Origin: Pseudomonas sp. St316
GTDB lineage: Bacteria > Pseudomonadota > Gammaproteobacteria > Pseudomonadales > Pseudomonadaceae
DNA length: 64,000 nt
NCBI RefSeq assembly: GCF_018325905.1
Contig: NZ_AP021901.1
Location: 1,736,001 to 1,800,000 of the forward strand
Direction: 5' to 3'
The translations under genes were made by a program, and so were the position numbers. Below, piece by piece: positions 1,202 to 31,509 of the stretch. Numbering within the stretch: the stretch's first letter is position 1; each line of letters begins with the position of its first letter. The notes beneath the pieces were generated by a model that searched no databases, was not told where the DNA came from, and saw only the letters and a list, made by a program, of their open reading frames with translations.

Positions 1202-1231
1202 ATTGTATACAACTTTATGTGCGATTTGTAA
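1202..1231 (-). promoter_or_regulatory. Likely puuE-uraD promoter with operator over the -10
   Basis: On the minus strand, TTACAA (1226-1231) and TACAAT (1202-1207) are separated by 18 bases and resemble a sigma-70 promoter. The -10 box lies inside the TTGTATACAA palindrome, so a bound regulator would block RNA polymerase. This promoter is an inference from sequence. Confidence 0.5.
1203..1212. promoter_or_regulatory. TTGTATACAA operator, copy 1 (puuE)
   Basis: A perfect 10-base palindrome in the puuE/uraH divergent intergenic region. The same decamer occurs at 4270, 31360 and 31500, in each case upstream of purine or glyoxylate genes. The short spacer-less palindrome fits a GntR-type operator. 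Confidence 0.75.
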
Positions 1232-1395
1232 GCCTGATTTTTTGCATTTTTCACCGCCACCCCTGATTTGTCTACACTGCAAGAAACCTGCCTATCTGGT
1301 CAATTAATCAGGGCAAGGATAGCGTATCCGTTGGTGTGGCTTAAGATCGGGCAGGAAGCAAGGTCGGAACACGCATGGGCAAAACATTGGTTTTT

Positions 1396-1407
1396 ATTGT
1401 GTACAAT
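1396..1407. promoter_or_regulatory. TTGTATACAA-like operator, copy 2 (uraH)
   Basis: ATTGTGTACAAT differs from the consensus decamer by one base (A to G at position 5). It lies about 130 bases upstream of the chosen uraH start, in an AT-rich stretch. The region 1122-1535 holds no gene, only this site, copy 1 and the two divergent promoters. Confidence 0.6.
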
Positions 1408-1535
1408 TTTATTTTAAAGTGTCTTAATTCGTGCATCGCCGTGGCGTTTCGTGCTCCGAAACGGTGCGGCCCGTCTTTCAACTGAATTCAGGAGGCGTCG
1501 TGCCGGACTGCACTGCAGCGAGGCGCGCACAAGCA

Positions 1536-1889
1536 ATGGGACGTTTGACCACTCACGTTTTGGATGCTGCACACGGCTGCCCGGGCAGCTCGATCAAGAT
1601 CGAGCTGTACCGCGTTGAAGGTTCGCAACTGCATTTGGTCGCCAGCGTACTGACCAACAGTGACGGTCGCTGCGACGCGCCGCTGCTGCAAGGGGACGAC
1701 TACCGTTCGGGAGTCTATCAATTGCAATTCCACGCCGGCGATTACTACCGCGCCCGTGGCGTGCAACTGCCCGACCCGGCGTTCCTGGACGTGGTGGTGC
1801 TGCGCTTCGGCATTTCGGCCGAGCAGGAGCATTACCACGTGCCCCTGCTGATTTCGCCTTACGCCTATTCCACCTATCGAGGCAGTTGA
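1536..1889 (+). CDS. uraH: 5-hydroxyisourate hydrolase (transthyretin-like)
   Basis: The 117-residue protein starts MGRLTTHVLDAAHGCPG and ends YRGS, the two hallmark ends of the HIUase/transthyretin-related family. It hydrolyses 5-hydroxyisourate to OHCU, the UraD substrate. The internal segment GVYQLQFHAGDYYRA also fits. The ATG at 1536 gives the usual family length. A GTG at 1500, four bases after a perfect AGGAGG (1490-1495), is in frame and would add 12 residues; the SD strength makes this a real alternative start. It is transcribed away from puuE, carries its own operator-like site at 1396, and is followed by a clear terminator at 1949. Confidence 0.92.
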   Translation: MGRLTTHVLDAAHGCPGSSIKIELYRVEGSQLHLVASVLTNSDGRCDAPLLQGDDYRSGVYQLQFHAGDYYRARGVQLPDPAFLDVVVLRFGISAEQEHYHVPLLISPYAYSTYRGS

Positions 1890-1948
1890 CCCCCCAAGCT
1901 GCTGCCTTGTCCTGGAAGCGACTGCGCATGGCGCTTCCTTGGTTTTTC

Positions 1949-1974
1949 GCCCGCTCACACTGCGGGCTTTTTTT
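1949..1974 (+). terminator. Intrinsic terminator after uraH
   Basis: Stem GCCCGC (1949-1954) pairs with GCGGGC (1962-1967), followed directly by seven T. Confidence 0.85.
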
Positions 1975-2007
1975 CGTCCACGAGAATGTGGGGGCAGGGA
2001 GGGACTC

Positions 2008-2079
2008 ATCGCGAGCAAGCTCGCGCCACAGGTCTTATGAGCGGCGAAAAACCACTGTGGGAGCGAGCTTGCTCGCGAT
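2008..2079. repeat. REP doublet, short class (72 bp)
   Basis: Two inverted copies of the GGGAGCGAGCTTGCTCGCG family. The left copy has GCTCGCGCCACAG instead of GCTCGCTCCCACAG. The doublet lies between the uraH terminator and the 3' end of the LysE-type gene. Confidence 0.9.
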
Positions 2080-29421: not shown

Positions 29422-29452
29422 GGTGGTCTCCTGTAGATAGTGGGCAGGCCCC

Positions 29453-29544
29453 CTGTGGGAGCGAGCTTGCTCGCGATAGCGGTGTGTCTGCTTGCGTTGA
29501 TGTTGAATGTAGCGCCGTCGCCCGGAGCAAACTCGCTCCCACAG
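29453..29544. repeat. REP doublet, long class (92 bp), right half degenerate
   Basis: Lies between gcl and hyi. The right half has CCCGGAGCAAACTCGCTCCC, an eroded copy. Confidence 0.82.
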
Positions 29545-29557
29545 AGACTCCGATTGG

Positions 29558-31333
29558 TCAGTCGAGCAACGAAATGGCGGTCGGTGCATCGTTGCCCACG
29601 AGCGCCAAGTCTTCAAACTCATTAACAGCGTTGATTTCGGTGCCCATTGAGATATTGGTCACCCGTTCCAGGATGATCTCGACGATCACCGGCACCTTGA
29701 ACTCCTCGATCATCGCCTGGGCCTGGCGCAGGGCCGGTTGGATACCGGACGGTTCGAACACCCGCAGCGCCTTGCACCCCAAGCCTTCGGCCACGGCAAT
29801 GTGGTCCACGCCATAGCCGTTGAGTTCCGGTGCGTTGAGATTGTCGAAGGACAGCTGCACGCAGTAGTCCATGTCGAACCCGCGCTGGGCCTGGCGGATC
29901 AGGCCCAGGTAGGAGTTGTTCACCACGACGTGGATGTAGGGCAGCTTGAACTGCGCACCCACCGCCAGTTCTTCGATCATGAACTGGAAGTCATAGTCGC
30001 CCGACAGCGCCACGACCTTGCGGCTCGGATCGGCCTTGACCACCCCTAGCGCGGCCGGAATGGTCCAGCCCAACGGCCCGGCCTGGCCGCAGTTGATCCA
30101 GTGGCGTGGCTTGTAGACGTGGAGGAACTGCGCGCCGGCAATCTGCGACAGGCCGATGGTGCTGACGTAGCAGGTGTCCTTGCCGAACACCTGGTTCATC
30201 TCTTCGTACACCCGTTGCGGCTTGACCGGCACGTTGTCGAAGTGGGTCTTGCGTTGCAGGCTGGCCTTGCGCTGCTGGCAGTCTTGCAACCAGGCGTCGC
30301 GGTTTTTCAGCTTGCCGGCGGCTTGCCATTCACGGGCCACTTCGATGAACACCGTCAGGGCCGAGGCAGCGTCGGAAACGATGCCCAGGTCCGGTGTGAA
30401 CACGCGGCCGATCTGGGTCGGCTCGATGTCCACGTGAATGAACGTGCGGCCTTCGGTGTAGACGTCCACCGAGCCGGTGTGACGGTTGGCCCAGCGGTTG
30501 CCGACGCCCAGCACCACATCCGACTTGAGCAAGGTTGCGTTGCCGTAACGGTGGGAGGTTTGCAGGCCGACCATGCCGACCATCAGCGGATGATCGTCGG
30601 GGATGGTGCCCCAGCCCATCAAGGTAGGGATGACGGGAATGCCGGTCAGCTCGGCGAACTCCACCAGCAGTTCGCTGGCATCGGCGTTGATGATGCCGCC
30701 GCCGGCCACCAGCAACGGGCGCTCGGCCAGATTGAGCATCGCCAGGGCTTTCTCGATCTGCACGCGGTTGGCCGCGGGTTTGGCTAATGGCAATGGCTGG
30801 TAGGCGTCGATGTCGAATTCGATCTCGGCCATCTGCACGTCGAACGGCAGGTCGATCAGCACCGGGCCCGGACGGCCGGAGCGCATCTCAAAGAACGCCT
30901 TTTGGAAGGCATACGGCACCTGGCCTGGCTCCAGCACGGTGGTTGCCCACTTGGTCACCGGTTTGACGATGCTGGTGATATCTACAGCCTGGAAGTCTTC
31001 CTTGTGCAGTCGGGCGCGGGGGGCTTGCCCGGTGATGCACAGGATCGGGATCGAATCGGCCGAAGCGCTGTAGAGCCCGGTCACCATGTCGGTGCCGGCC
31101 GGGCCCGAGGTGCCGATGCACACACCAATATTGCCGGCCTTGGTTCGGGTGTAGCCCTCGGCCATGTGCGAGGCGCCTTCAACGTGGCGAGCAAGGACGT
31201 GATCGATGCCACCCACTTTCTGCAGGGCAGAGTACAGCGGGTTGATCGCGGCACCCGGGATACCGAAGGCGGTGTCCACGCCCTCACGGCGCATTACCAG
31301 AACGGCGGCTTCGATTGCTCTCATTTTGCTCAT
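29558..31333 (-). CDS. gcl: Glyoxylate carboligase
   Basis: The 591-residue ThDP enzyme joins two glyoxylate molecules to tartronate semialdehyde and CO2. It starts [20 protein letters not shown] and has [15 protein letters not shown]. Val51 in [14 protein letters not shown] stands where most ThDP enzymes have a catalytic Glu, as in E. coli Gcl. Further segments are the FAD-site region [19 protein letters not shown] and the ThDP motif [15 protein letters not shown] followed by VNNSYLGLI. The start ATG 31333 lies 27 bases from a perfect TTGTATACAA palindrome that overlaps a likely -10 box (TACAAT). It leads gcl-hyi-glxR-ttuD-pykA, and repression by a GclR-type regulator is likely. Confidence 0.97.
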
Positions 31334-31359
31334 TGTTTTGTGCCTCTTACGTTTTGTAA

Positions 31360-31369
31360 TTGTATACAA
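31360..31369. promoter_or_regulatory. TTGTATACAA operator, copy 4 (gcl)
   Basis: Perfect palindrome 27 bases upstream of gcl. On the minus strand its TACAAT overlaps a -10 position. Confidence 0.78.
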
Positions 31370-31499
31370 GTGGCTTTGCGCAGAGTGTATTCATGGGAAA
31401 CGGCACAGGTCAATCCATTTCCTCAAGCATCTGTTTCATTCGTCGGAGGGCAAGGTTTTGCTGGGTTCTCTCATCGACTAAAGCGCTTTGTGAAAATTA

Positions 31500-31509
31500 T
31501 TGTATACAA
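31500..31509. promoter_or_regulatory. TTGTATACAA operator, copy 5 (hbpS-like gene)
   Basis: Perfect palindrome in the gcl/hbpS-like divergent region, 92 bases upstream of the plus-strand start; 140 bases separate it from copy 4. Confidence 0.75.

Follow-up and report, generated by a model that had tools for sequence, protein, structure and literature searches.

What does the short palindrome TTGTATACAA do before genes of purine breakdown and of glyoxylate use in Pseudomonas sp. St316, which regulator reads it, and how far does its reach extend beyond the DNA in which it was first seen? That DNA is a stretch of 64,000 nucleotides (hereafter the window) of a genome of 6,777,545 bases, and a preliminary description had seen in the palindrome the mark of a purine-to-glyoxylate regulon at two distant loci. 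Our analysis argues that TTGTATACAA, with the single-mismatch forms TTGTGTACAA and TTGTACACAA tolerated, is very probably the operator of GclR/UgmR, a GntR-type repressor of the FadR subfamily (with an FCD domain), and that the predicted regulon is a dispersed purine regulon that includes azurin. While the repressor and its core targets are already known through UgmR and GclR, the azurin operator is the new element.

A string scan of the window located perfect copies of TTGTATACAA at 1203, 4270, 31360 and 31500 and the single-mismatch form TTGTGTACAA at 1397, as had been described, and the earlier remark that the window holds no other perfect copy also stood, there being no further match within one mismatch beyond these five in the whole window. 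Shuffled versions of the window contained on average 0.01 perfect and 0.31 one-mismatch copies. The site-to-start-codon gap amounts to 55 bp at puuE, 130 bp at uraH, 141 bp at the permease, 27 bp at gcl and 93 bp at the HbpS-like gene, and these gene assignments, already proposed, were supported by NCBIfam and Pfam. The sites and the genes concerned are the following.

1203..1212: operator TTGTATACAA, perfect match, before puuE (minus strand, start 1148)
1397..1406: one-mismatch operator TTGTGTACAA, before uraH (plus strand, start 1536)
4270..4279: operator TTGTATACAA, perfect match, before the NCS2 permease gene (minus strand, start 4129)
31360..31369: operator TTGTATACAA, perfect match, before gcl (minus strand, start 31333)
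31500..31509: operator TTGTATACAA, perfect match, before the HbpS-like gene (plus strand, start 31602)
195..1148, minus strand: puuE, allantoinase (NCBIfam TIGR03212, 543.5 bits)
After puuE, beyond the window edge (L030), minus strand: alc, allA and puuD, the last a cytochrome-c urate oxidase (Pfam Allantoicase, Ureidogly_lyase and Urate_ox_N)
1536..1889, plus strand: uraH, HIUase/transthyretin family (Pfam PF00576)
2780..4129, minus strand: NCS2-type purine permease (Pfam PF00860, Xan_ur_permease)
29558..31333, minus strand: gcl, glyoxylate carboligase (TIGR01504, 1159 bits)
24783..29421, minus strand, downstream of gcl: open reading frames that we take, by eye, to be hyi-, glxR-, glycerate kinase- and pyruvate kinase-like
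31602..32042, plus strand: HbpS-like gene (Pfam PF03928)

Over the whole genome, TTGTATACAA occurs seven times without mismatch, against zero in the reversed control, and all seven copies lie upstream of a gene start. Rather than being spread over many unrelated promoters, six of the seven precede genes for nucleobase permeases or for purine/glyoxylate metabolism, and the remaining one, itself conserved, precedes azurin. The three copies outside the window precede an NCS1-type permease (L026), an NCS2 gene of the xanthine-permease type (L027; TIGR03173, 510 bits for a cut-off of 414) and azurin (L028; TIGR02695, 202 bits for a cut-off of 105). The two distant loci of the preliminary description are thus real, but their number was set too low: perfect copies occupy five dispersed places of the genome, with one-mismatch copies at gclR and at a further permease, and the genome scan led us to reject a regulon limited to the two window loci. 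We likewise rejected a motif that tolerates any single mismatch, as this returned 28 copies in the genome and 25 in the control. The one-mismatch forms that we retained, TTGTRTACAA/TTGTAYACAA, are those at uraH, at gclR and in a pair of copies, 142 bp from each other, that precede a second NCS1-type permease (L029); they recur in relatives, the gene-proximal copy of the pair being also present in G004, G017 and G018. Perfect sites precede the first NCS1 permease in 10 of 12 orthologues (at least 70% identity, own genome included), the other two having one-mismatch sites; for the xanthine-type permease, 13 of 14 orthologues (at least 79% identity, own genome included) show the perfect form.

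The proposal that a GclR-type GntR repressor encoded outside the window is a plausible reader of the site gained support from an orthologue, from the form of the motif and from co-occurrence. With the GntR/FCD protein that P. putida HAI-2 encodes divergently to its NCS2 permease as the query, we found a 91% identical protein with GntR and FCD domains at G000:C1:4666933-4667670, the next match in the genome being at 31%. Its gene lies ~2.9 Mb from the window's sites, is convergent to xdhA-, xdhB-, xdhC- and guaD-like genes (xdhA and xdhB by Pfam, xdhC and guaD by eye) and has the one-mismatch site TTGTACACAA 94 bp before its start. By sequence and by gene order, the latter in part presumed for KT2440 and PAO1, this is the predicted GclR (PP_4283) or UgmR (PA1520) of the strain. 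The palindrome, read as TTGT-A-T-ACAA, fits with N0 the operator form NyGTM-N0-1-KACNy given for FadR-subfamily GntR regulators (PMC4494728), and the TTGTGTACAA form departs from it at one position.

In P. aeruginosa, UgmR represses gcl and PA1513-1518, and uric acid relieves this repression (PMC12694930). The UgmR regulon resembles the one predicted here in its GntR-family repressor, in its targets (gcl and the allantoin genes PA1513-1518) and in the pathway; in St316, however, the puuE block, the gcl operon, gclR/xdh and the permeases lie apart from one another, and the site also stands before azurin. GclR of P. putida KT2440 has been described as a repressor of gcl linked to xanthine genes (PMC13357446), and gclR is described there as lying 12 kb from the gcl cluster, unlike the distance found here. 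The literature searched, which did not take in the original UgmR study, gave us neither the operator sequence nor its reach nor the azurin link; among the matches listed for the TTGTATACAA string, none concerned purine or UgmR regulation by title. Besides gclR, a second GntR/FCD gene (L134:4049-4708, minus strand) stands divergent from xdhA in the own genome, and the interval between it and xdhA has no TTGTATACAA-type site within one mismatch.

Conservation was followed in 80 named loci around the permease, the counts taking the genes that were found with 300 bp upstream. A perfect site precedes puuE in all 71 cases; the permease has 50 perfect and 24 one-mismatch sites in 75 loci, partly shared with a divergent gclR; and for uraH, once the sites nearer puuE are set aside, 72 loci comprise 3 with a perfect site, 64 with one mismatch and 5 with none. 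The gclR gene has a site within 300 bp in 32 of the 33 named loci in which it was counted, including 10 of the 11 where the site is unshared. In the same genus gclR often lies away from the permease, and in 15 of 16 genomes, the own one among them, a perfect or one-mismatch site lies no more than 320 bp from it, 11 of these unshared; the sites are mostly TTGTACACAA, 89-108 bp before the start. Moreover, the number of copies follows the regulator: in a search of 29 relatives, 18 of them of the same genus, the 15 same-genus relatives with a close GclR (88% or more) have 1-11 perfect copies each, and the 3 without GclR (G001, G013, G014) have 0. The counts outside the genus, 0-5 and mostly near the control of 0-3, are little informative.

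Two surveys extended the reach of the site in relatives, (i) one of 20 stretches around not-yet-assigned sites in six same-genus genomes (22 sites) and (ii) one of 20 stretches taken from genomes of other genera and from a single distant genome of the same genus (20 sites). In the former, 10 of the 22 sites are at puuE, the permease or gcl/HbpS, 3 at McpH-like chemoreceptors and 2 at an lpd-like gene assigned by eye; in the latter, permeases, gcl, an McpH-like receptor, moaC and malate synthase G (G067) account for 12 of the 20, a glyoxalase-superfamily gene for 3 and a RutR-like TetR for 1. Most assigned sites fit a program of finding, taking up and oxidising purines and of using glyoxylate, and the dispersed permeases, together with the chemoreceptor, moaC and malate synthase G of relatives, are part of the reach of the operator. 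The site before a moaC-type gene, TTGTATACAA in two genomes of one genus label (L380 and L383; G036 by Pfam, G119 by eye), would fit purine use because xanthine dehydrogenase requires the molybdenum cofactor. The McpH-like receptors with the operator upstream belong to G005, G007, G009 and G114; that of G005 matches the structure of McpH with bound uric acid (8bmv) at E 2.5e-103, and the W-F and FxD residues of the purine motif are present in 3 of the 4. Receptors like the purine chemoreceptor McpH (PDB 8bmv, PMC11245519) carry the operator upstream in these relatives, whereas in the own genome the stretches surrounding perfect or one-mismatch sites yielded no McpH-like gene. The glyoxalase-superfamily (VOC) gene has TTGTATACAA just upstream in three genomes of different genus labels (L379, L388 and L393; Pfam on one), and the lpd-like gene, similar to dihydrolipoamide dehydrogenase by eye, has it upstream in G007 and G015 (L340 and L344).

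The azurin site is a lineage trait. In the relatives set, 18 azurin promoters (own included) comprise 10 with a perfect site, 2 with CTGTATACAA and 6 with none. A family-wide sample held 81 azurin-bearing genomes (84 places), of which 70, own included, were examined upstream, the other 11 falling below 50% identity: the site is perfect in the own genome and 9 others, all of the same genus, has one mismatch in G151, of another genus label, and is lacking in 59. Both samples together give 31 same-genus azurin genomes (own included), 19 of them with a perfect site, 2 with one mismatch and 10 with none. Against an azurin-wide rule, the site is lacking in 36 of the 47 family genomes that have GclR, PuuD and azurin (own included), likewise in G018, and in all 14 azurin genomes of the family sample that, G151 aside, bear the genus label g19, which we guess to be the P. 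aeruginosa group.

Where present, the azurin site falls into two classes by where it begins with respect to the start codon, -96 to -109 and, further up, -125 to -128 (G003, G007, G015, G151). The common type has 3-4 bp between the end of the site and an ANR-like TTGA-type box downstream of it (3 bp in the own genome; the box was not matched in G076). A T follows the palindrome in 19 of 19 azurin promoters while the flanking columns vary, the 10-mer being invariant by selection of the set and the T not. The site is retained in 9 loci where the divergent LOG-family neighbour was not detected; it therefore follows azurin, and we rejected the reading of the site as a property of the LOG-family gene. 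A TTGATT-N14-SATAGM block, read by eye in azurin promoters irrespective of whether they have the operator, is a possible distal promoter, although no standard spacing could be fitted to it.

Is the azurin copy a chance or hitch-hiking match, the regulon stopping at purine and glyoxylate genes? The carriers are mutually related, and besides the 10 same-genus genomes a further 55 from other genera lack the site; many of the genomes without it have GclR and PuuD. Nevertheless, the constant T beside varying flanks, the two kinds of position and the retention of the site without a detected LOG-family neighbour make this rather unlikely in our view. Another possibility is that a different FadR-subfamily GntR regulator reads TTGTATACAA at some or all of the sites, azurin especially. 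The own genome has 17 GntR-type matches, GclR included, the motifs of the subfamily are mutually alike, azurin is no obvious purine gene, and some relatives have a second GclR-like protein of 42-52% identity. We hold such a reader to be improbable, since the same-genus relatives without GclR retain other GntR candidates and yet have no perfect copy, since the own genome has no paralogue nearer than the one at 31%, that of 42-52% not having been found there, and since GclR is present in 21 of 21 same-genus azurin-site carriers, although also in 7 of the 10 genomes without the site.

The palindromes could also belong to a pathway regulator of another family, for instance the RutR-like TetR encoded beside gcl at 32846-33493. 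TetR regulators bind palindromes too, and that of the window resembles RutR. For P. aeruginosa, the induction by allantoin has been ascribed, as a proposal, to the TetR PA1504 (PMC12694930). This last reading is very improbable, given that TTGTATACAA fits the FadR-subfamily form, that an unshared site of this type precedes gclR in 11 of 16 same-genus genomes and that the copy number follows GclR, a co-occurrence looked at for GclR alone.

Several observations weigh against GclR/UgmR as the reader of a dispersed regulon. In the own genome the one-mismatch copies as a class are barely above background; 22 of the 33 named gclR loci share their site with a divergent permease (start at 400 bp or less), so that no self-regulation can be read there, and in G018 no site lies closer to gclR than 320 bp. 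In the surveys, 7 of 22 and 4 of 20 sites are without explanation, two of the former lying within a conserved coding region, and so are the 2 sites next to the lpd-like gene; and, for azurin, 10 of the 31 same-genus azurin genomes do without the site. From the literature, gcl of P. aeruginosa is apparently induced by allantoin through a route other than UgmR (PMC12694930), and in P. umsongensis GO16 the deletion of the gclR orthologue is reported to leave growth on EG, TA and glucose, none of them a purine, unaffected, and growth on ethylene glycol depends on the LysR activator TtdR.

If GclR is the reader, as we favour, a GclR dimer on each palindrome would block the promoter and, by analogy with UgmR of P. 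aeruginosa, urate would release it. The predicted regulon would comprise (i) an uptake arm of two NCS2-type and one or two NCS1-type permeases, (ii) the steps from urate to allantoin and glyoxylate (puuE-alc-allA-puuD and uraH) and (iii) glyoxylate use through the gcl operon, together with the HbpS-like gene. The regulator gene, beside the xdhABC-guaD-like genes, would be under a one-mismatch operator of its own. Permeases, urate oxidation, ureide breakdown and glyoxylate use would rise together, and in this lineage azurin as well.

What could azurin do in such a regulon? The own puuD encodes a Urate_ox_N domain and one CxxCH haem motif (CSVCH). Azurin is a copper protein, a soluble one-electron carrier of the periplasm. 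It is a candidate acceptor for PuuD because operator, compartment and chemistry are shared, the cytochrome-c domain of PuuD being placed in the periplasm by its published topology (PMC4562309). We therefore suggest, as a possibility still tentative and less likely to hold than to fail, that in the lineage with the azurin site accumulating urate lifts the GclR/UgmR repression of azurin together with that of PuuD, and that azurin passes the electrons of urate from PuuD to the respiratory chain. The discoverers of PuuD pointed to a link with respiration without naming a partner, reported that azide did not inhibit, and kept superoxide scavenging as a possibility; the redox partner is not identified in their discussion and the word azurin is absent from their main text (PMC4562309), whereas here azurin carries the operator of the pathway. 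The physiological role of azurin was still called poorly understood in 2026, in a study in which an azu deletion changed little on Biolog GEN III plates and whose main text lacks the words uric, purine and allantoin (PMC13413535). A literature search for azurin with urate oxidase returned nothing on the topic by title and start of abstract, and one for azurin, allantoin and Pseudomonas returned nothing. A requirement of every PuuD for azurin was rejected, as G077 and G134 have PuuD and GclR and no azurin match at E 1e-25; because such PuuD-bearing genomes exist, other lineages would use another carrier. If the suggestion is true, azurin gains a physiological role and PuuD its missing acceptor, and the conserved shared operator makes both directly testable.

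The position of the site within the promoters is less settled. The preliminary description had placed it over the -10 box at puuE and gcl and between -35 and -10 at the permease, and a consensus promoter scan did not reproduce this: it gave only TAGACA-17-AAAAAT upstream of puuE and only TTGACC-18-TACACT upstream of gcl, both clear of the palindrome, and no match upstream of the permease. In favour of the -10 placing, a T follows the site on the gene strand (TACAAT) in 88 of 91 puuE-side and 61 of 67 uraH-side entries, in which the 300-bp windows of the named loci overlap and some copies are counted from both sides.

As to the surroundings of the window's sites, the gcl and HbpS-like operators are 140 bp apart, and G009 shows the same arrangement with sites 139 bp apart (L348). 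Pairs of perfect sites spaced 128-140 bp, as at gcl and the HbpS-like gene, recur in six listed relatives. The RutR-like TetR gene beside gcl is on the minus strand and scores 180.9 bits with NCBIfam RutR, under the cut-off of 368; in G077 (L394), TTGTATACAA lies in the start region of a TetR gene resembling it. Between the HbpS-like gene and this TetR gene, an open reading frame at 32254-32712 (plus strand) appears by eye to be like a REP-associated tyrosine transposase. Near the permease site, repeats of the GCGAGCAAGCTCGCTCCCACA type stand at about 4355-4445.

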